Below are positions 10,307 through 21,697 of a stretch of DNA of 64,000 nt, in pieces. The notes under the pieces were generated by a model. The model was not told where the DNA came from. It saw only the letters and a program-made list of their open reading frames with translations, and did not search any database. This DNA is from an uncultured Ignavibacteriota bacterium (GTDB lineage: Bacteria; Bacteroidota; Ignavibacteria; UBA10030; UBA8401), in the NCBI GenBank assembly GCA_903861125.1, contig CAIOTF010000017.1, forward strand, positions 1 to 64,000. Direction: 5' to 3'. Position 1 is the stretch's first letter; the number at the start of each line of letters is the position of its first letter. The position numbers and the translations under genes were made by a program.

Positions 10307-11182
10307 TTAGAAAGAAATCCCTAAGACAACAGTATAAATAGAGACGGATTGCCGATAGGTTGAAAGTGGAAGTGTGGGATGAAGGACCGAAGGATCCAAC
10401 AATTCAGGATTGCTCAGCGCTGTTACAGGGAGCGATGGTTCCGAATGAAAATATTTAATTCCGAATGTAAAAAAATCAAACACGGCGCCGCCGATAGAAA
10501 CGGAATATCCCGATTGCGTGCCCGAATTTGACGGCGAGGTTAAGGCACTATATTTATCGGAAAGGAATATAACGGGAGACCGTACCGTTGCCCACCCATA
10601 GTTCACACTTGCATACAATGATACATTACCAAGCGTTGTCTGCGAGCGCACGCCCGGCAGTATCCATAGACAAGTCCAATTCTCAATCCGGGTTGTAATT
10701 GTTGCGGGAATATTATTTAATCGAAACGATCCCTCGTCGACACCGTTACTGATTACGGCAACTGTTGCATTGACGTATAACGACCGTATGAGAGGAAAAT
10801 TTACTTCAGCTCCGATAATCGTTCCTGATGTTGCATAGCCTGCTGCAGAATGGCTGTTATCGCCGAATTCATCTGCCGGCAGGGCAAGACCGGCAAAGAG
10901 GGAATACGTAATTCCGCGCGCGTAAATAGTTGTGTCGGTTGTTTCGGAATAATAATCCATCCGTTCATTCCCGACATAAGAAATATCGGCATAGGTGATG
11001 GTGTAAACAACATTTTCACCGGTTATGATTTTCAATTGCTGATCAGGAATGATCTCAATGATTGTTCCGGAAATGATGCGCCCGTTCTTAAGATATACAA
11101 CGTTCTTCTTCCTGTCCTGCGAAATAAGATTGAAGGTGAGAACGATAACCAGAAAAACCATTGCAATAGGGCGTGAAATCAT
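10307..11182 (-). CDS. Predicted outer-membrane protein with N-terminal SH3/LSm-like strand region
   Basis: No named function is recognised. The preferred start is the ATG at 11182, which overlaps the upstream stop as ATGA and puts a hydrophobic signal sequence at the very N-terminus (MISRPIAMVFLV); the ATG at 11212 would add ten residues. Residues 25-70 contain VVYLKNGRIISGTIIE followed by ITYADISYVG, a pattern common at the start of Bacteroidota surface proteins. The remaining 200 residues alternate like a beta barrel and end in a terminal Phe (LGISF), typical of barrel insertion signals. It lies between the M61 peptidase and glgA genes. Confidence 0.7.
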   Translation of the reverse strand: MISRPIAMVFLVIVLTFNLISQDRKKNVVYLKNGRIISGTIIEIIPDQQLKIITGENVVYTITYADISYVGNERMDYYSETTDTTIYARGITYSLFAGLALPADEFGDNSHSAAGYATSGTIIGAEVNFPLIRSLYVNATVAVISNGVDEGSFRLNNIPATITTRIENWTCLWILPGVRSQTTLGNVSLYASVNYGWATVRSPVIFLSDKYSALTSPSNSGTQSGYSVSIGGAVFDFFTFGIKYFHSEPSLPVTALSNPELLDPSVLHPTLPLSTYRQSVSIYTVVLGISF

Positions 11183-12966
11183 CTCTTGACGTCCCACGAT
11201 TCTTTCAGCCATTCTTCATAGATCGCTTTCTGTAGTGCGGTCGGCGAAGCAATTTTTTTCACCGCATAATTTATTGTGCCGGAGTAACCGAGTTGTACCT
11301 TCAACTCTTTTAATCGGTCGTTTCTGAAGATCGTCAGTATGATCTCATCACCGGCGTTCATGGAGGAAATTCGTTCATAAAAATCGTTTGTCCGAACGCG
11401 GTATCCGTTAAGTGCAACGATTTCATCATAGATCTCAAGCCCTGCTTTTTCTCCGGGAGAATCCGGAGTGATACCGGATATCCTTGTGCTTTCACCGGCA
11501 TCCTGTGTTGTTATTCCAATACTAATTCTTTTCGTAGAATCGCGCCGAGTGATCTCAAGTCCCGCGTAGGAAAGTGTTTGATCCCACGGAAGAGAAACAG
11601 TGGAGAAGACATAGTCATGGAAGAACTCACGGAAGCTGCCGCCGCCGAATTCTTCGCATGTTTTTTGAAGATCGGCATTCGTAAATCCTTGGGTCGGCGT
11701 AAACCGTTTGAACATTGCCCGCATCACATCGTCCAGGGAATGGACATTCTTTGAACGCTGACGGATTTCAAGATCGAGAAGCAGACTTACCTGCGAACCC
11801 TTTCCATAATAATCGCTTTCGGCATTCTGGGCATTCTGTCTTCCGCGCCAGTATTTTATCCACGCATCAAAACTTGCTTCGGCAACGGATTGAATGGTAT
11901 TGCCGTAGCGCATGCGTTCGTTCGTCACCATTTGACCGACCTTGTCCAGATACGACCGAGCATCCGAAAATTTTGCACGCAATATTATGAGATCATCAAA
12001 ATACGATGTTGTGCCTTCGCTCACCCAGAGTTCTTCGGAATAATTTTCTTTCGAAAAATCGTAGGGTGCGATCGCTTTCGGCCTCAGGCGTTTCACGTTC
12101 CATGTATGGAAATATTCGTGGGAAATCAATCCGAGAAAACCTTTATAGGCAGCGGGATTTGAAAAAATGAACGGACGAACGCCCATAATGGTGGAGTTCA
12201 GATGTTCCGTTCCCCCTCCGGCGTTCGGCTGACAGTGGATCTGGAAAATGAATTTCTTATACGGCAGTTCACCCCAGAATTCCTTATTGGCAATGACGAT
12301 CTTGGTCACATCGTTGATCAGCGTATCGATGTTCCAATTTCCTTCGCCGTAAATGCTGATGATATGTCTTTTCCCGTCAACAAAAAAATCGAAATCTTTT
12401 TGATGGCCGATCTCAAGAGGACAATCGCCGAAATGCTCGAAGGTGGGAGCTGAAAATGTGAACGGTGCACCGTCCGATTCATCAAGACCTGTTGTTACCT
12501 TCCAGTCGCCAAACGGTACGACAGTCAGTTGAAGGGGCTTATTTTTTAATTCGTCAACATACATGAAAACTGAGAGGGGATCGACAAATGCATGTTCGCT
12601 GTTCAATTCGCGGGTCCGCATATTGAATTCATTTGCATATACCTTGTACCGTGCGGTCACCGATTTTGAACTTCCTTGTTCGATCCGCCAGGTATCTTTA
12701 TCGGTTTTCTTGTAAGGAAGGAGATTGTTCTTTTCATCAACCGCGGAAAATTCCTGCACGCCTCCGGAAAAATCCAGCAGAAGGTACCGTCCTGTCCGCC
12801 ATGCCGGCATATGAAGATCCAGAATTTTAGTTTTATGATTCTCTATACGAATCTCTACTTCAAACAGATGAGTGGCCGGTTTGGGCATTGAGAGTCTATA
12901 AAAGACCGCAGGTTGTGAATGTGCCATAAGGGTTGTGAGTATGAGAAGAAATTGGAATATTTTCAT
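11179..12966 (-). CDS. M61-family glycyl aminopeptidase-like metalloprotease with PDZ domain
   Basis: From the ATG at 12966 the protein has 595 residues and begins with a signal peptide (MKIFQFLLILTTLMAHSQ). The N-terminal beta domain is followed by the zinc-peptidase core: GGGTEH near residue 258, HEYFH at 283-287 with zinc ligands His283 and His287, and a third ligand Glu317 in WVSEGTTSYF. A PDZ domain (about residues 490-570, ISGITPDSPGEKAGLEIYDEIV) follows. M61 enzymes are exported aminopeptidases preferring N-terminal Gly or Ala. An upstream in-frame ATG at 13059 would bury the signal peptide and is rejected. It starts the leftward run ending at 2273. Confidence 0.9.
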   Translation of the reverse strand: MKIFQFLLILTTLMAHSQPAVFYRLSMPKPATHLFEVEIRIENHKTKILDLHMPAWRTGRYLLLDFSGGVQEFSAVDEKNNLLPYKKTDKDTWRIEQGSSKSVTARYKVYANEFNMRTRELNSEHAFVDPLSVFMYVDELKNKPLQLTVVPFGDWKVTTGLDESDGAPFTFSAPTFEHFGDCPLEIGHQKDFDFFVDGKRHIISIYGEGNWNIDTLINDVTKIVIANKEFWGELPYKKFIFQIHCQPNAGGGTEHLNSTIMGVRPFIFSNPAAYKGFLGLISHEYFHTWNVKRLRPKAIAPYDFSKENYSEELWVSEGTTSYFDDLIILRAKFSDARSYLDKVGQMVTNERMRYGNTIQSVAEASFDAWIKYWRGRQNAQNAESDYYGKGSQVSLLLDLEIRQRSKNVHSLDDVMRAMFKRFTPTQGFTNADLQKTCEEFGGGSFREFFHDYVFSTVSLPWDQTLSYAGLEITRRDSTKRISIGITTQDAGESTRISGITPDSPGEKAGLEIYDEIVALNGYRVRTNDFYERISSMNAGDEIILTIFRNDRLKELKVQLGYSGTINYAVKKIASPTALQKAIYEEWLKESWDVKR

Positions 12967-13193
12967 AAGAAGAGTTTGGCTTAACCTAAAAGACAGCAAA
13001 ACGATATTTCGTCCGGTCTGACGGTATGGCAGAATTTTTCGGGATGGCAAAAAAGACACTAATCCGTTTTTTCGCTGTCATACGTCCGGTATAAAGACAA
13101 TGTAGGGCGTATGCTGTCTTCATAGATACGGTTCAGGAATAATCTACCGAAAGTGACTTCGGAGAGCAAGAAAAAATCCCTTTGAAAAAACAG
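12967..13193. other. Divergent intergenic region, M61 peptidase / porU
   Basis: About 230 bases between the M61 peptidase start and the porU promoter. It should carry the M61 promoter, but I could not pick out a convincing -35/-10 pair on the minus strand. A 60-codon minus-strand frame (13059-13241) overlaps the porU promoter and shows no protein features. Nothing else supportable is seen. Confidence 0.5.
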
Positions 13194-13224
13194 TTGACAA
13201 ACAAAACATGCTTCTCTATATTTG
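13194..13224 (+). promoter_or_regulatory. Strong promoter of the porU operon
   Basis: TTGACA (13194-13199) is followed after exactly 17 bases by TATATTTG (13217-13224). It matches both the sigma-70 consensus and the Bacteroidota -7 consensus TAnnTTTG. Transcription should start near 13229-13231, giving a leader of about 155 bases before porU. Confidence 0.75.
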
Positions 13225-13249
13225 TAGGAGAAGTTCATCAAACATAAGG

Positions 13250-13335
13250 AGCAACAAGTATAGATTTTTTGTTAAAGGTTGTAGGTCAGCTAATGGTCGT
13301 TTGACACCTTTAACGTTTATACTCGTTGCTTTTTT
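13250..13335 (+). promoter_or_regulatory. Long structured leader hairpin with U-tract before porU
   Basis: The outer stem pairs 13250-13262 (AGCAACAAGTATA) with 13318-13330, 12 of 13 pairs with one A-C mismatch. An inner stem pairs 13271-13279 (GTTAAAGGT) with 13306-13314, all 9 pairs. A third short stem, GTCA (13285-13288) with TGAC (13302-13305), lies inside. Six Ts (13330-13335) follow directly. The element lies inside the predicted 5' leader, so it could be an attenuator, the 3' end of a small RNA, or a leader that senses a signal. I recognise no known riboswitch family in it. Confidence 0.65.
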
Positions 13336-13386
13336 ATTGTACCGAGCGTGAAGGTGTATCTGCAACTCATGATTCGGTATTTTATT

Positions 13387-16300
13387 ATGTTCAAACAATC
13401 AATTTTATTTTTGTTTTTTTTCTGCGCTTACCTTGTTGCGCAGAACACTTCAACGTATTCCGATGTCAGGGTCATTGAGTCTGATGAGAAGGGAATCACG
13501 CTGGAGTTCCGTCCGCACTATCTTGCCAATAGGCTGATCACTGCCGAGGGAAAAACATTTGAGATACCGCAGTTCACATCAGGCATAATGGTCGGCCGGA
13601 ATGAACCCGGCAGAGAAGATATTCGAAGCAGGATACTATCCGTTGCACTTCCGTCGTATCAGGGAAACACGGTTACTGTTACAGCCTCCGATTTTGAAAG
13701 GATACAATCATTTCCCCTCGCACCGATTCCTACAGTGGAAGCATACGATAATTTAGGACCATCAAAGTACGGATACTCTGCAAATTTTATTTCCAAACAG
13801 AATTTCTATCCTGCTCAGATCGCTGAATTGAAGAACATCGGTAAAGTAAAAGGAATTGTGACGGGAAATATTGTTGTTTCTCCCACCCAATTCCAATCTG
13901 CTACAAGCACCCTGAAACGGTATTCCCGTATTGTTATTCGTATTGATTTCGGTGCAAAGGATGCTCTTATCGAAAATTCAGGAAACGACGAATGGGCCCA
14001 GGCATCGCTGCTAAATTATTCTATGGTGAAAAAATGGAGTATGCCGGCACTGATGCGGAAAGTTTCTACTGTCAGTTCGGTGCTTTCTTCCGGAACGTGG
14101 TTCAAGATGGAAGTGGTCGATGAGGGGATGTACAAAATCACTGCTGCGTATTTGCGTGCAGCGGGTATTGAACCCGGATCTCTTTCATCGATCTATGACG
14201 TGAAAATATTCGGAGCGGACGGGAGAAGAATTCCCGAGAGTCTCGTAGCTGTCCGGCCTGCCGATCTTCCTCAAGCAGCCGTTGAATATGTAGATAATAA
14301 TTCCAATTCAAAGTTTGACGCCGATGACTATATTCTGTTCTACGGACAGGGAGTGAATGGTTGGAACTACGATCCTGTTCAGAAGCAATTTCAGAATTAC
14401 GTTAATCCGTACACATTCAGCAACTACTATTTTTTCAGTGTCGGCGCCAATGTTCCTGTAAAACAGATCGTATCTGTTTCGGTTCCCGGCACAACCGGCG
14501 GATCTGTTTCGCAAACGCTCGGGAAAGTTTTCTTTAACGAACAAAAATATAATCTCAATGCATCCGGCCAGCAATGGTTCAGTCCGCCGATGAATGCAAA
14601 TGAATCGCGCGTACTAAGCAATAAGTTGACAGGAAGGATCACTGGAACACCGGTTACGTACCGATACAGCCTGCTATCCCGTTCGAATGCAACGTCGCAA
14701 TTCATTCTGGAAGAGACCGGCACTCCGGTTTCAACGGAATCCATATCCGGAAAACCGGACTATAATCTTAACTCTCCAATAGAAACGTATGCCGAAGTCA
14801 GCGGTCCTCGTCAGGCGACGATCGTTCCCGTACTGAGCGATGACCGCAGTAATTTAAAATTGACATATTCCGTTCCGTCCACAGTTGCCTTTGGTTTTAT
14901 CGATTGGGTGAATATCTTCTACCGGCAGGGCTTAACGGCATCAAACGATTTGCTGCAGTTCTCCTCGCCGGATTCCAGCGGAACAGTAGAATATTCGGCA
15001 ACAGGTTTTTCCACAAATGCAGTAAAAGTGTATGAAGTGTCCAGCGTGAACAGCGTGCGTAGGATATCCTCCCGTTCAGATCTTGTGCTTGGATCGATCC
15101 TTTTTAAGGATACATTGAGCGCGGGAAAGATCCGCAAATACTGGGCCGGCACGGAAGCAAAATATCTTACTCCGAAGTCGATTGTGAAGATTCCCAATTC
15201 GGACCTGCACGGATTCAGCGGTGCGGAATTTATTATTATCACGCACGCTGATTTCAAGTCGGAAGCTGTTCGTTTGAAGAACCACAAGGAGAATCTTCCG
15301 GGGACGAAAAAAATCACGACAACCGTCGTAGACGTTGATACCATCTACAATGAATTCGGAATAGGCATGCCCGATCCGACCGCATTGCGCGATTTTATCC
15401 GTTACGCTTCGAACAATTGGAGTGTGAAGCCGAAATATGTTCTCCTTTTTGGCGATGCAAGTTATGATTACCGTTCAATTCTGCAGAACGACCGGTCATT
15501 TGTTCCCACATACGAAACGTTGGAATCGAACAGCAAGATTTCGACACTGAACAACGAGGACTATTTTACGTACATCGACGTACAGAATACGGTTTCCATA
15601 GCACAAGGTCGATTAACGCCCCGCACGTCTGAAGAGGCCCGGGTGATCGTAGACAAAATTATTATGTACGAATCGGCAATTCCCAAAGGGACATGGAAGA
15701 ACTTGATCACGATTGTTGCCGACGACAAGTGGTCAACGGATGATCAAAATGAAGGTGACCATACAACCCAGGCGGAGGATCTTGCTACGTTTTATACTCC
15801 AAAAGATTTTGAAATCAAAAAAATATTTATGGAGGAATATCCGGTTGTCTATACGTCATCGGGAAGAAGGAAACCGGATGCACGGAAAGCAATGCTCGAC
15901 CAGGTGAACAATGGAACGCTGATCCTGAATTTTGTAGGGCACGGTAACCCCAAAGTATGGGCTCACGAGAATATTCTTACGCTTGATGATGTTCGTACGC
16001 AATTCCTCAATCAGGATAAGGAGACTTTTATTGTAGCGGCAACGTGTGACTGGGGACGGTTTGACGAAGCCGGCGAATCAAGTTCGGCCGAAGAGGTTGT
16101 AATCAATAAAAAAGGGGGAGCAATCGGCGTGCTGAGTGCAACACGAGCGGTCTATGCAAGTTACAATGCCGCAACGAATCAAAGTTTCTATCAATATGTC
16201 TTTTCGCAAAAGCCTTCCATGCGCATTGGCGATGCATATATGCTGACGATGAATGCTCCAAACGATCTAGAAAACAAGCAGAAATATTTTTTATTAGGTG

Positions 16301-17385
16301 ATCCGACGCTTCGGCTCGCCGTTCCATCCGAGGTAATCGTCATCGATTCTCTCCAAACGGAAACCACTACCGTTGCCGATACGCTGCACGCACTGGAAAA
16401 GATCAATGTGAAGGCAACGGTACGGGATATGGCGAATGCCATTTCAACTAATTTTTCCGGCAGCGCACAAATCACCGTGTTCGACGCCGATAGAAAAAAA
16501 ACGATATCAACGATGCCGGGGTGGGATTATGAAGACAACGGCGGCATCATCTATAAGGGGGAAAATTCCATTAAAAATGGAGTGCTGAATGCGGCATTCA
16601 TCGTACCTAAAGATATTGCGTACCAGAACAAAAATGGACGTATTTCAGTCTATTTTTCGGATGCATCGTCCGACGGACGGGGATATACAAGAAACTTCAT
16701 CGTCGGTGGTGCCAGCAGAAATGTTCGTCCGGATTCACTTGGTCCGGACATTGCCATCTATTTAGACAATACAAATTTCCGTGCAGGCGATGTTGTTACT
16801 GAGAATCCCACGCTGATTGTTACGTTGATCGATAGCAGCGGTATCAATTCATCAACGAACAGCATCGGTCACAGGCTTGAGGCATGGATCGATGGGAATG
16901 CGAAGAGTGTTGATCTGACAGAATTCTATAAGGGAAAGATTGACAGCTATCAGGGAGGATCTGCGGAATATTCGATGAGTAATCTTTCCTTGGGGAACCA
17001 TACCATTAAAGTGCGGGCTTGGGATGTACATAACAATTCCTCTACGGCTGAATCGTATTTTATGGTTGCATCCGGAAGCGGATTGTCGATCCAGCAGTTG
17101 TATAATTTCCCGAATCCGGTGACAACGGCTACGACATTCACCTTTCAGCACAATCAACTTACGCCGGTCGATGTTACAGTAAATATCTATACCGTCGCCG
17201 GTCGTTTGATACGAACGATCGAACGGTTCGCCGTTCCGGATCGCTTCGTGAAGATCGATTGGAACAGGACCGATTCCGACGGCGATGAAATCGGGAATGG
17301 AATATATTTCTACAAGGTTATTGCAAAGACAATTGATGGAAAATATTCAAGCGAAGCATTGGGGAAAATGGCAATTGTCCGGTAA
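13387..17385 (+). CDS. porU: Type IX secretion system sortase PorU (C25 peptidase family)
   Basis: The 1332-residue product starts at the ATG at 13387, which gives a signal peptide (MFKQSILFLFFFCAYLVAQ); a GTG at 13348 in the same frame would precede it. The central C25 (gingipain-type) domain has its catalytic pair at His852 (FVGHGNPKVW) and Cys887 (VAATCDWGRF). The C-terminus is a T9SS sorting domain starting at FPNPVTTATTF and ending in GKMAIVR. PorU is the outer-membrane enzyme that removes sorting domains from T9SS cargo and attaches the cargo to the surface. It is directly followed by porV, its known partner. It is longer than the P. gingivalis protein, mainly in the N-terminal half. 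Confidence 0.92.
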   Translation: MFKQSILFLFFFCAYLVAQNTSTYSDVRVIESDEKGITLEFRPHYLANRLITAEGKTFEIPQFTSGIMVGRNEPGREDIRSRILSVALPSYQGNTVTVTASDFERIQSFPLAPIPTVEAYDNLGPSKYGYSANFISKQNFYPAQIAELKNIGKVKGIVTGNIVVSPTQFQSATSTLKRYSRIVIRIDFGAKDALIENSGNDEWAQASLLNYSMVKKWSMPALMRKVSTVSSVLSSGTWFKMEVVDEGMYKITAAYLRAAGIEPGSLSSIYDVKIFGADGRRIPESLVAVRPADLPQAAVEYVDNNSNSKFDADDYILFYGQGVNGWNYDPVQKQFQNYVNPYTFSNYYFFSVGANVPVKQIVSVSVPGTTGGSVSQTLGKVFFNEQKYNLNASGQQWFSPPMNANESRVLSNKLTGRITGTPVTYRYSLLSRSNATSQFILEETGTPVSTESISGKPDYNLNSPIETYAEVSGPRQATIVPVLSDDRSNLKLTYSVPSTVAFGFIDWVNIFYRQGLTASNDLLQFSSPDSSGTVEYSATGFSTNAVKVYEVSSVNSVRRISSRSDLVLGSILFKDTLSAGKIRKYWAGTEAKYLTPKSIVKIPNSDLHGFSGAEFIIITHADFKSEAVRLKNHKENLPGTKKITTTVVDVDTIYNEFGIGMPDPTALRDFIRYASNNWSVKPKYVLLFGDASYDYRSILQNDRSFVPTYETLESNSKISTLNNEDYFTYIDVQNTVSIAQGRLTPRTSEEARVIVDKIIMYESAIPKGTWKNLITIVADDKWSTDDQNEGDHTTQAEDLATFYTPKDFEIKKIFMEEYPVVYTSSGRRKPDARKAMLDQVNNGTLILNFVGHGNPKVWAHENILTLDDVRTQFLNQDKETFIVAATCDWGRFDEAGESSSAEEVVINKKGGAIGVLSATRAVYASYNAATNQSFYQYVFSQKPSMRIGDAYMLTMNAPNDLENKQKYFLLGDPTLRLAVPSEVIVIDSLQTETTTVADTLHALEKINVKATVRDMANAISTNFSGSAQITVFDADRKKTISTMPGWDYEDNGGIIYKGENSIKNGVLNAAFIVPKDIAYQNKNGRISVYFSDASSDGRGYTRNFIVGGASRNVRPDSLGPDIAIYLDNTNFRAGDVVTENPTLIVTLIDSSGINSSTNSIGHRLEAWIDGNAKSVDLTEFYKGKIDSYQGGSAEYSMSNLSLGNHTIKVRAWDVHNNSSTAESYFMVASGSGLSIQQLYNFPNPVTTATTFTFQHNQLTPVDVTVNIYTVAGRLIRTIERFAVPDRFVKIDWNRTDSDGDEIGNGIYFYKVIAKTIDGKYSSEALGKMAIVR

Positions 17386-17464
17386 TGGAACATTGCTGGT
17401 AACGTAAAGCAACTATAGTATTAAATTTTTTTATTAACTATATTTTATAAAGGAAATAACCATT

Positions 17465-17470
17465 GAGGAG
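17465..17470 (+). promoter_or_regulatory. Shine-Dalgarno site fixing the porV start
   Basis: GAGGAG lies 7 bases before the ATG at 17478. Good Shine-Dalgarno sites are rare in this window, and this one selects that ATG over the in-frame TTG at 17463, which overlaps the site itself. It also suggests high translation of porV. Confidence 0.7.
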
Positions 17471-17477
17471 CTATAAA

Positions 17478-18590
17478 ATGAAAAAGGCGTTCAGTACTGT
17501 CGGCGCGGTACTATTAATGTTCAGCGTCACGCAATCGGTGTTTGCTCAGGCAGGATCGACAGCAGTTCCGTTTTTGATGATCTCACCAAATTCCCGTGCC
17601 AGCGGCATGGGTGAAGCAGGCACAGGAATTGCGGATGATGCAGCGTCCATCCACTGGAATCCCGCAGGACTTGCTTTCCAAAAAGGTGGGGAAGTAAGCA
17701 TTACGCATTCGAACTGGCTTCCGCAGTTCAATCTCTCTGACCTGTTTTACGATTATTTCAATATTAAACAGGAGATGCCGGAATACGGCGGAACATTCGG
17801 TGCCAGTATTACATATCTGAATCTCGGTGAGTTTATTGTTACCACAGAAAAAGGTCCTGATGCTGTCGATAAATTTAAGGGTTTTGAGTTTGCCGTCACT
17901 GCGGGGTACGGAACACAAGTGACCGATGATTTTGGTCTTGGATTAAATCTGCGGTATATCAACTCCAGTCTGTCACCGATCGGAACAGCGCAGGAAAAAG
18001 GATCCGGCATTGCCAATGATTTTAGTTTTGATCTTGGATTTTTATACCGTCCGAAGTCGCTGATTATTCCGGTGGTCGATGAAGATATCGGTGGACTGTT
18101 CAGTGTAGGGGTCAATGTAACAAATCTTGGTCCGAAAGTGACATACATCGATGCTGCGCAGGCTGATCCGCTTCCAACGCAATTACGGGTCGGTTTCGGT
18201 ATCACGCCGATGAAAGATCAGTATAACAGCTTAACGCTGGCGGTCGATTTTGCAAAACTTCTTGTCTATCGTGAACCGAACGGAGCTTCGCACGAACTTC
18301 CTAAGTCTATAATAACTTCATTCAGCCAAAATTCGTTGGACCAGAATATTAAATACGTTAATACATCTGTCGGTCTTGAATATTGGTACGATAAAAAAGT
18401 GGCGCTGCGTATGGGATACTTCTTTGAAGATCCGTTGAACGGAAACCGTAATTTCATGACGTTCGGTGCCGGTTTACGGTATGATATCTACGGATTTGAT
18501 TTTAGTTACATCTCCGCGAAAGAAGAAAACCATCCGCTCTCCGAAACCCTTCGTTTTACACTGCTCATTTTGTGGAACGAAATCTTATAA
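17478..18590 (+). CDS. porV: Type IX secretion outer-membrane shuttle protein PorV (LptO)
   Basis: The 370-residue protein starts with a signal peptide (MKKAFSTVGAVLLMFS...VFAQ). The mature N-terminus, AVPFLMISPNSRASGMGEAGTG, then NPAGLAF, is the typical PorV/FadL-like barrel start. Many alternating beta segments follow, and the protein ends in a strand with LLILWNEIL. PorV binds the sorting domain of T9SS cargo and delivers it to the PorU attachment complex. Adjacency to porU supports this over a generic FadL-type barrel. It is 92 bases downstream of porU, and a GC-rich hairpin lies behind it. Confidence 0.9.
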   Translation: MKKAFSTVGAVLLMFSVTQSVFAQAGSTAVPFLMISPNSRASGMGEAGTGIADDAASIHWNPAGLAFQKGGEVSITHSNWLPQFNLSDLFYDYFNIKQEMPEYGGTFGASITYLNLGEFIVTTEKGPDAVDKFKGFEFAVTAGYGTQVTDDFGLGLNLRYINSSLSPIGTAQEKGSGIANDFSFDLGFLYRPKSLIIPVVDEDIGGLFSVGVNVTNLGPKVTYIDAAQADPLPTQLRVGFGITPMKDQYNSLTLAVDFAKLLVYREPNGASHELPKSIITSFSQNSLDQNIKYVNTSVGLEYWYDKKVALRMGYFFEDPLNGNRNFMTFGAGLRYDIYGFDFSYISAKEENHPLSETLRFTLLILWNEIL

Positions 18591-18636: not shown

Positions 18637-18667
18637 TGTGCCGGTGTTCTTTCAATGTTGGATCGAA

Positions 18668-21600
18668 ATGAAAAATAAAATAATACTTGCTGCACTTCTA
18701 TTGCTCCAGCTTCTTTTCTCACAAAAGCTGTCCCATACCCTGCGTGCGGCTTCCAATAGTGCCGTGGCGAATCCGGCGGTGAACACTTTTCCCGATACGC
18801 TGAATGTTCTGGCGATCCGCGTGCAGTTCCAGACCGATAATGATTCGCGGACGTCGGGGAACGGACAATTCGATCTCTCCGCTGCGGGTGAACGAATCAT
18901 CGATGCAGCGCCTCACGATTCCGCATACTTCAGCGATCATTTTGTTTTTGCCCATAACTATTTTTTCAAGGCATCCAACGGTAAACAGCATATTCGAACA
19001 ACCGTGTTGGGAAAAGTTATTACCGTAAAAAAGCAGATGAAAGAGTACGCTCCGGTCAGCGGAAATCTGCCTATGGCTCAACTGATTGAAGAAGCGTGGA
19101 GAGCGGCGGATTCGTTGTACCCAGGATATCAATTCCAGAAGTACGATCTGTTCACACTCTTTCATGCCGGCGTTGGTAGAGATATCGATCTTCGGGCAGC
19201 ACTCGGGTACGACCCAACACCGCTTGATCTTCCTTCACTCTATTTTAATTTGAACTCGCTGAAAACGCTCTTTGGAAATTCGTATCAGGGAGTTGTGCTG
19301 AACAACTCGTCATTCAAAATTCCTAATTGCGTGGTGCTGCCTGAAACGGAAGTGCGCCGCATACCTTCCGTTGGAGGTGATTTTATATTAAAGTTAGGAA
19401 TTAACGGACTGCTTGTGGCGAGCATCGGTAGTCATTTGGGACTTCCTGATCTCTTCGATACAAAGACAGGCAAATCCGGGATCGGTCGATTTGGTTTAAT
19501 GGATGGACAGGCGATCTTCAGTTTTTCCGGTATTGCTCCGCCGGAACCGAGTGCGTGGGAAAAAATTTATCTCGGATGGACTACGCCGATCGAAATAACA
19601 GGAACAAAAACTTTACGCGTTCCGGCGGCAGGACTATATTCGTCGGGAAACGACACGATCTACAAGATCCCGATCAGTGCCAAGGAATATTTTCTTGTTG
19701 AGAACAGATGCCGCGATGCAAAGGAAAACAATCATTCCATCACAACAAAATGGAACGGTCAGGTGTTGACCAGACAATTTTCGCAGGATGAGGAGTATTT
19801 TTCCAATTCGAACATCGATTCCGCCTACGGCGTAATAACGGATGTTGATGAATTGGACTGGAGTCTGCCGGGACTGATCAACGCGAATAACAGCTACAAG
19901 GGAGGAATCCTTGTCTGGCATATCGATGAAACGATCATTGAGAAAAATTTTGCCGCAAACACCATCAATGCAGATCCGGCGAAGCGCGGAGTCGATCTTG
20001 AGGAAGCGGACGGTTCACAGGATATCGGTCAAACATATGATTTCGGATCTGCCGGTTCGGGCACCGAGGATGGATCGCCGCTCGATTACTGGTTCAGCGG
20101 AAATATTTTCCCGCAATACACGAACGAATTTTCGGGAACGACAAATCCGAATTCGCTCAGCAACACTATGTCTAAATCCCATATAACACTCAAGAATTAT
20201 TCGGGCAGAGCGTCGCTCATGACGTTTGATGCAGTTGTCGGCGATGCCGATGTTCAATTGGTAAAAACGGTCAAACGACGCAATCTGAAATTGAATAATA
20301 ACGATGCACCGCTTGCCTCCGATCTGAACGGCGACGGGAAACAGGAGTTGATCTATACCAGCGGCGATTCGATCTTCGTGCTGAAGGATGATCTGACTCC
20401 GTATCTTAACAATTTGACCGGATTATTTTCTGCAGTAGGAGGGCGGTTTCAACCTGCTCCGCTGAGAATCTATTCCTCATCGGAAAATGCGCTGATCGGT
20501 GTGCAGGACAAAAAAGTATATCTTCTTTCTTCTAAAGACAACAATGCTGATGGTCTCGCTGATACGATTCGGACATTCACAGTCTCTTCCGCTCTGACGA
20601 TGCCACCTTCAACTTATCAGGATACACAAAGCGGTCAAAGCCTTATTATTGCAGGTGACAGTGCGGGCCGGAGGGTTATGTTTGCGAATATAAACCCGTC
20701 GGTATGGATTAAGGATTCTACGTCGTATTTTAAATCTCCAGTGATCGGCCAATCGATTGCGATCACCTATTCTCAGGATTCAGTCTCTCTCTCAGGGGTC
20801 AAGATCGGCTTTCAGGGAAAAAAGATTAAAGCCGTTGCTTCACGATACCAGGTAAACAACGACATTCTTTTTGATGATAATACATTCGGGACCATTCTCT
20901 CGAATGCAGTTTCAAATACAATGAAGACTTTTACTGTCCCGGATCAGGTCACCGGTTCATTCGCAGTGTATGATGTCAATAATGACGGGAGTTCTGATTT
21001 TGTCATAGGTGCAGGGAACAAACTCTATGCATACAATTCCAACGGTGTTCTGATTGAAAATTTCCCTTTCCAAACAAAAGACGGTGGGTCGGTCGTCGGC
21101 AGTCCGGTTATTGCAAAACAGAAAAACGGGAGTGACATTCTGATTATTTTTGGTTCAACAAACGGACAGATGTATGCAATTGATTCGAAAGCAAAGTTAG
21201 CGTCGGGATTTCCGCTGCAAACCGGCGGCATTGTTTCATCCCCCTTATTATGGAATGACTTCCTTGCCGTGGCATCAACGGATAGTTCCATCTACATCTG
21301 GAAAATTCCGGGGCTTGCTGACACGTCAAAGATTTATTGGAAAGGTTTTTTGGCGGACTATTCTCACAGTAATTATGTGAATAATTCTACTGCATCGAAC
21401 CCGAAATCATCCGAACTGCTTCCGAAAAAATTAGCATACAACTGGCCGAATCCGGTGTACAGCGGCGTGACGAATATCCGGTATTATTTGGGCAAACCGG
21501 CGACGGTGAAAATAAAAATCGTGAATCTGGCCGGCGAACTTGTAGAAGAACTTCGCGGAACAAATTATGCCGGACTTGATAATGAAGTGCAGTGGAATAT

Positions 21601-21697
21601 TACCAACGTGCAGAGTGGAATTTATTTTGCACAGATCACCGCCAGCGGAAGCGGGGAAGAGATGAGTCAGATTGTGAAAATTGCGGTGGTGAAATGA
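18668..21697 (+). CDS. T9SS cargo: inactive M6-metalloprotease-like surface protein with FG-GAP-type repeats
   Basis: From the ATG at 18668 the protein has 1009 residues with a signal peptide (MKNKIILAALLLLQLLFS). It shows several marks of the M6 (immune inhibitor A) family: GLPDLFD, FGLMDG, ILVWHIDE and GVDLEEADG. Where the zinc motif HExGH should precede LGLPDL, the sequence reads ASIGSH (residues 251-256), so the two His ligands and the Glu are missing. Residues around 570 (DLNGDGKQEL) and 765 (DVNNDGSSDF) form FG-GAP/VCBS-type propeller repeats. The last 80 residues are a type A sorting domain (NWPNPVYSG to IVKIAVVK). It is probably exported by PorUV and surface-bound as a non-enzymatic scaffold or adhesin. 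An ATG-like start at 18638 would hide the signal peptide. Confidence 0.82.
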   Translation: MKNKIILAALLLLQLLFSQKLSHTLRAASNSAVANPAVNTFPDTLNVLAIRVQFQTDNDSRTSGNGQFDLSAAGERIIDAAPHDSAYFSDHFVFAHNYFFKASNGKQHIRTTVLGKVITVKKQMKEYAPVSGNLPMAQLIEEAWRAADSLYPGYQFQKYDLFTLFHAGVGRDIDLRAALGYDPTPLDLPSLYFNLNSLKTLFGNSYQGVVLNNSSFKIPNCVVLPETEVRRIPSVGGDFILKLGINGLLVASIGSHLGLPDLFDTKTGKSGIGRFGLMDGQAIFSFSGIAPPEPSAWEKIYLGWTTPIEITGTKTLRVPAAGLYSSGNDTIYKIPISAKEYFLVENRCRDAKENNHSITTKWNGQVLTRQFSQDEEYFSNSNIDSAYGVITDVDELDWSLPGLINANNSYKGGILVWHIDETIIEKNFAANTINADPAKRGVDLEEADGSQDIGQTYDFGSAGSGTEDGSPLDYWFSGNIFPQYTNEFSGTTNPNSLSNTMSKSHITLKNYSGRASLMTFDAVVGDADVQLVKTVKRRNLKLNNNDAPLASDLNGDGKQELIYTSGDSIFVLKDDLTPYLNNLTGLFSAVGGRFQPAPLRIYSSSENALIGVQDKKVYLLSSKDNNADGLADTIRTFTVSSALTMPPSTYQDTQSGQSLIIAGDSAGRRVMFANINPSVWIKDSTSYFKSPVIGQSIAITYSQDSVSLSGVKIGFQGKKIKAVASRYQVNNDILFDDNTFGTILSNAVSNTMKTFTVPDQVTGSFAVYDVNNDGSSDFVIGAGNKLYAYNSNGVLIENFPFQTKDGGSVVGSPVIAKQKNGSDILIIFGSTNGQMYAIDSKAKLASGFPLQTGGIVSSPLLWNDFLAVASTDSSIYIWKIPGLADTSKIYWKGFLADYSHSNYVNNSTASNPKSSELLPKKLAYNWPNPVYSGVTNIRYYLGKPATVKIKIVNLAGELVEELRGTNYAGLDNEVQWNITNVQSGIYFAQITASGSGEEMSQIVKIAVVK

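Follow-up and report, generated by a model that had tools for sequence, protein, structure and literature searches.

In the window, the 64,000-nucleotide stretch of Ignavibacteriota DNA analysed here, porU is preceded by a structured leader with two hairpins, the first of which probably serves as the sensing part of a transcription attenuator that acts in cis and is specific to this gene. The promoter, the outer and inner stems of the first hairpin (P1 and P2), a putative terminator and an alternative pairing between P2 and the terminator are all supported by comparison of leader sequences. The first-pass annotation had described three stems and a T-run about 50 bases before porU, and had read them as an attenuator or a small RNA. 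The stems and the T-run are real, with 12 of 13 positions paired in the outer stem, 9 of 9 in the inner stem and GTCA/TGAC in the third, but that description missed the second hairpin at 13339-13380. The attenuator proposal is strongly supported by the structural conservation and by the position of the element, which precedes porU in every match of the wide covariance model within the order, with the correction that the first hairpin and its T-run are not the whole device.

Gene context of the leader

The features of the leader and of the adjoining genes are collected in Table 1. The product of porU has an NF033707 match above cut-off at G000:C17:14080-17376, and the start of the gene was set at the ATG at 13387, from which several homologues align. 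We rejected an in-frame GTG at 13348 as the start, since it falls within the second hairpin and the frame is lost in one relative (L010). The upstream neighbour of porU, an M61 peptidase gene with PDZ domains (11179-13059, minus strand), is divergent, which places both hairpins within the transcription unit of porU rather than at the end of one upstream. The porV gene, downstream on the same strand, is possibly co-regulated with porU. Adjoining this gene pair, at 18638-21697, the window encodes a secreted protein that ends in a T9SS sorting domain (PF18962, C-terminal) and is likely a T9SS cargo.

The promoter first placed at 13194-13224 was recovered as a promoter-like sequence with one departure from consensus (Table 1). 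A match of this kind is present in 61 of 66 leaders and in 3 of 66 shuffled ones, a count that is biased upward because most leaders had been preselected with a similar promoter filter.

Table 1 Features of the porU leader and adjoining genes in the window
Feature	Position (strand)	Description
Sigma-70-type promoter	13194..13222 (+)	TTGACA-17-TATATT, 11/12 consensus matches; the -10 element runs on as TATATTTG
P1 5' strand	13246..13263 (+)	AAGGAGCAACAAGTATAG, includes the conserved GGAG and YAU[A/C]G; from fold and covariation
P2 5' strand	13271..13280 (+)	GTTAAAGGTT, block of highest conservation
P3/apical region	13285..13305 (+)	GTCA...TGAC in the window's genus, outside which both length and sequence vary
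P2 3' strand and flank	13304..13317 (+)	ACACCTTTAACGTT; can pair instead with the terminator arm, putative antiterminator strand
P1 3' strand and T-run	13317..13335 (+)	T-run at 13330-13335
Second hairpin (13339-13380) and short T-tail	13339..13383 (+)	Resembles a terminator, of canonical form in most relatives
Terminator 5' arm and loop	13345..13357 (+)	AGCGTGAAGGTGT; pairs with 13304-13317 (L009, -18.5 kcal/mol)
porU	13387..17385 (+)	T9SS C25-family sortase, the gene proposed to be regulated; Peptidase_C25 3.7e-90, Propeptide_C25
porV	17463..18590 (+)	PF19572 PorV 1.6e-35

Structure and conservation of the first hairpin

P1 pairs 13251-13263 with 13317-13329 over 13 positions, with one A-C mismatch and a G-U pair at the top, while P2 pairs 13271-13279 with 13306-13314 throughout and P3 joins GTCA (13285-13288) to TGAC (13302-13305). 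The porU ATG lies 52 bases downstream of the T-run, which also pairs with AAGGAG (13246-13251), so that P1 is longer than had been annotated. The predicted RNA fold of 13220-13400 has an energy of -48.5 kcal/mol (z = -4.19), with none of 200 shuffled sequences equally stable, and the first hairpin and its 5' flank by themselves give a z of -5.5. Among 67 leaders, 61 fold with a z below -2, and the minimum free energy (MFE) folds contain P1 in all 67 and P2 in 65.

Structural conservation, which had been named beforehand as the test of the proposal, is thus seen in these folds, and it is also seen in the covariation of P1. The pairing of this stem is kept despite sequence change: in the family alignment five pairs are changed on both sides, four of them in P1, and 2 of 500 shuffles reach as high a number. 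When the P1 5' strand was paired with the P1 3' strand in the 67 leaders, the cognate combinations gave -13.77 versus -11.20 after within-family permutation (0/5000 as low), and the covariation control of this test against the apical loop was null (67 leaders).

P2 alone shows weak covariation, with one pair changed on both sides (451/500 shuffles as high), because its sequence is too constant. Its 5' strand, GTTAAAGGTT, is identical in 42 of 67 leaders, and most of its columns do not vary in alignment A4, which has 34 rows. The 3' strand varies more than this 5' partner: ACCTTTAAC is found in 20 of 67 leaders, and there are many variants. Upstream of P2, a GGAG/AGGA-like motif is present in 59/67 leaders and a YAU[ACU]G-like motif in 58/67.

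The second hairpin and the alternative pairing

The second hairpin (GTACCGAGCGTGA...TGATTCGGTAT) has a predicted energy of -15.5 kcal/mol and ends beside the porU start codon. Most relatives have a canonical intrinsic terminator at this place (e.g. CCGAATG...CATTCGG-TTTTTT), and a T-run of at least 4 follows the second hairpin in 64 of 67 leaders; the tail in the window itself is weak (TATTTTATT), and in L017 the second hairpin is not recognisable. A T-run directly ahead of the second hairpin was found in 19 of 67 leaders, 14 of which belong to the window's own family, and in the window's genus transcription may also end at this T-run behind P1, as a second site in tandem. Outside the order, in L204 (G131:C3), P1 itself (GGACGGTTGC/GCAACCGTCC-TTTTTT) looks like the sole terminator and a separate second hairpin was not seen.

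The 3' strand of P2 has a second potential partner in the second hairpin, namely its 5' arm and loop. In the window, AGCGTGAAGGTGT (13345-13357) is complementary to ACACCTTTAACGTT (13304-13317) over 13 pairs with one bulged A, and in L065 the corresponding segments are AATGTTAAAGGT in the terminator arm and loop and ACCTTTAACATT in the P2 3' strand. For the 67 leaders the energy of the cognate pairing averages -15.21 kcal/mol, compared with -11.29 for random combinations and -13.05 for within-family permutation, which leaves some relatedness (0/5000 each), and for 46 non-redundant leaders the values are -15.18 and -12.79 (0/5000). The better safeguard is given by the sliding and segment controls. 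In the sliding control (n up to 55), the segments at the P2 3' strand alone reach z values of -6.2 and -7.05 (0/1000 each), the segment 10 nt upstream has a z of -2.9, and the other 13 range from -2.04 to +1.87; in the segment controls, the signal is absent when the terminator arm is set against P1 or the apical loop. This covariation between the P2 3' strand and the terminator arm is the pattern that would be expected for an antiterminator.

The set of 67 comprises those of 70 leaders that could be parsed; the failures were L017, in which no second hairpin was recognised, and L158 and L189, which lie outside the script's regular expressions, the element being visible by eye in L158. One further leader, L068, was excluded as its downstream gene is not porU. 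The antiterminator pairing is poor in L049 (-4.6), and in several leaders of family f5 it is no better than in permuted combinations.

The pairing evidence does not separate attenuation from translational control, in which the same architecture would act as a switch, with the second hairpin hiding the initiation region and the P2 3' pairing opening the site. The short distance from the end of the terminator T-run to the next ATG (median 7 bases in the 53 of 67 leaders where both were found) would suit such a switch, as would the description in PMC6847099 of Bacteroidetes without Shine-Dalgarno sites in which initiation is tuned via mRNA structure. However, translational control has no need of T-runs after the hairpin, which are nearly general in these leaders and reach TTTTTT in many relatives, and we consider this explanation unlikely.

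Distribution of the leader

The leader is found ahead of porU in at least 79 of the 98 genomes of the order, namely 62 genomes detected with a covariance model (R2, below) and 17 more from printed or script-parsed leaders, while in the remaining 19 genomes the porU starts are truncated or unexamined. NF033707 matches are present in all 98. A first covariance model, R1, for which 13 sequences from the family of the window were used, matched 19/98 genomes at E <= 1, which correspond to 18 of the 22 genomes of that family and one weak match elsewhere. The wider model R2, built from 34 sequences, gave 62 matches at E <= 0.01 in 62 of the 98 genomes; as R2 was partly built from the same genomes these matches are not independent, and the informative part is that there is one in each genome, every one before porU. 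This placement was established for 58 matches by coordinates (an NF033707 match shortly downstream, sharing contig and strand) and for 4 by tblastn.

At the DNA level, blastn recovered 19 of 60 relatives, some of them through unrelated short matches, and an exact pattern was found in 25/98 genomes, including families f2-f4, with far fewer matches for the reversed-pattern control. The porU leaders of families f5 and f6 also carry the element, in variants that the exact pattern misses.

A repeat or multicopy family was considered and rejected, since both blastn, apart from short chance matches, and R2 at E <= 0.01 found a single copy in the window's own genome; where R1 matched the own genome a second time, it had read this one hairpin on its other strand. 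Two copies that do not precede porU were seen among the relatives. L053 (G011:C1:13965-14061) is a second copy in one genome, with a P1 that differs in sequence yet pairs by eye, and the next long gene, about 270 bases on, encodes a redoxin/thioredoxin-like protein. L068 (G034:C11:3907-3973) is an element with a perfect terminator before a short secreted-looking protein, near a contig end of a small, incomplete genome that is one of the 19 outside the 79.

When the exact pattern was run over 391 genomes of the class, matches beyond the order were about as frequent as those of the reversed control, and the pattern is uninformative there. From 25 further families a single genome each was taken, and R2 at E <= 1 matched 5 of these and left 20 without a match. 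The matches in G131, G103 and G111 lie directly before porU, whereas in G104 and G169 a flippase gene stands between the match and porU. In these last two (L207, G104:C99; L208, G169:C229) the order of the element, or what is left of it, then the flippase-like gene and then porU suggests a flippase-porU operon in two other families; the L207 leader has a promoter, P1 and two hairpins with T-runs. In several other out-of-order porU leaders no element was seen by eye (e.g. L194, L196, L198-L202). In porU leaders from other families of the class (L185, L188, L190, L192, L193), P2 and the terminator are absent by eye, and a short YAUAGA...UUUUGYUAC-like motif is retained after the promoter. The conserved 5' strand may thus be older than the switch.

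This distribution bears on the second of the initial readings, a separate small RNA, which is unsupported as a conserved function. In this reading a trans-acting RNA of about 105 nt would end at the first T-run (13335), porU being expressed by read-through. The promoter, the stable hairpin with its T-run and the strong sequence conservation within family f1 agree with it, and a transcript of about 105 bases may occur in the window's genus. Nevertheless, the T-run before the second hairpin is missing from 48 of 67 leaders (19/67 have it, versus 64/67 for the second), all R2 matches of the order adjoin porU, and the covarying partner of P2 is located past the first T-run, which makes a trans-acting RNA very improbable. 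Least probable is a DNA operator, with GTTAAAGG/CCTTTAAC as a palindromic protein site and the RNA fold incidental: the block is indeed almost invariant and near-palindromic, and R1 scores the opposite strand too, but the loop between the half-sites is highly variable in length, P1 changes in sequence yet covaries, and the 3' half-site covaries with the terminator arm.

Proposed mechanism

The attenuator reading accounts for the promoter and leader that belong to the regulated gene itself, for an intrinsic terminator ahead of the start codon (with a weak tail in the window) and for a mutually exclusive antiterminator backed by covariation. In the mechanism that we propose, the sigma-70-type promoter would start a leader of about 155 nt. 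In the OFF state P1 and P2, with the variable P3, would sequester the P2 3' strand, so that the second hairpin could form and transcription would end. In the ON state the P1/P2 5' strand would be held or unfolded, and the freed P2 3' strand would invade the second hairpin, pairing with its 5' arm and loop to form an antiterminator that blocks the terminator. Because P1 and P2 are synthesised first, the terminator should form by default, and porU expression would require something that keeps the P2 3' strand free. Actual termination, the default state and the trigger are the parts of this mechanism that we infer.

When the P1/P2 5' strand of the window leader was masked, the MFE fold was still the terminator and not the antiterminator, which indicates that the switch, if real, would be kinetic, with an ON state dependent on co-transcriptional timing. 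By rough energies, which for antiterminator versus terminator compare segments of different length, P1/P2 is far more stable than the antiterminator, and the ON state would thus need active input.

Neither of the two partners of the P2 5' strand is as constant as this strand itself (UUGUUAAAGGUU, preceded by GGAG and YAU[A/C]G), and from this we infer that it would be recognised sequence-specifically by a factor or ligand. A trp-type leader peptide was looked for by eye, and the leaders share no ATG, GTG or TTG at Shine-Dalgarno distance after GGAG and their frames shift. On balance, and with less assurance than for the attenuator itself, we favour a new class of leader RNA that senses a signal and is shared across the order, either riboswitch or factor-bound, which would be dedicated to porU and be recognised at GGAG-YAU[A/C]G-UUGUUAAAGGUU.

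Relation to known systems

None of the RNA families in the searched libraries matched the porU leader. With Rfam 15 at gathering scores there was no match in the window, the leader included, and none in 12 relatives apart from a tRNA, while a permissive search gave three unrelated matches with E of 2.6 or more; the initial statement that no known riboswitch was present therefore holds. Transcription-attenuating riboswitches combine a mutually exclusive antiterminator and intrinsic terminator in a structured 5' leader. The porU leader resembles them in its structured 5' leader with a conserved core and variable apex, and in its putative antiterminator and terminator before one gene. In contrast to riboswitches, most residues conserved in the porU leader belong to a single strand of a helix and not to a junction, and the leader matched no Rfam family.

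Protein-controlled attenuators offer a second comparison. In pyr/PyrR the bound factor decides between folds. A factor on the leader likewise chooses between two folds in B. subtilis trp/TRAP (PMC4027176, PMC3913778), and the choice of two folds is also factor-controlled in ANTAR leaders (PMC3369936, PMC3369931). The choice between two folds by a bound factor that we propose would be of the same kind, whereas the gene of the porU leader is a T9SS sortase; TRAP-like repeats were not seen by eye in the porU leaders.

Leader RNAs are also described from the neighbouring Chlorobi group, as SAM-Chlorobi and Lnt motifs (PMC2864571, as far as its available text goes). SAM-Chlorobi has promoter sequences near the RNA as well but, unlike the porU leader, precedes metK/ahcY, and Lnt appears there as a table row; the words peptidase, sortase and gingipain are absent from the main text of that paper. 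The available part of PMC9723704 lists PorU in a table of sigma-factor promoters and describes its osmotic induction in Flavobacterium psychrophilum, and this part, which excludes a supplement listing 64 structured 5' regions, does not mention an RNA switch for PorU. Word counts in the available parts of PMC11109978 and PMC8632094 were zero. Among the papers searched on T9SS/PorU, Ignavibacteria, motif discovery and porU/porV transcription, which came from outside the subscription journals, a porU leader RNA was not found.

If the proposed attenuator is true, it would mean RNA-level control of type IX secretion. With a single-copy porU leader RNA across the order, the supply of sortase would also be metered to secretion at a layer after initiation, and its conserved strand would be a concrete bait in the search for the signal.
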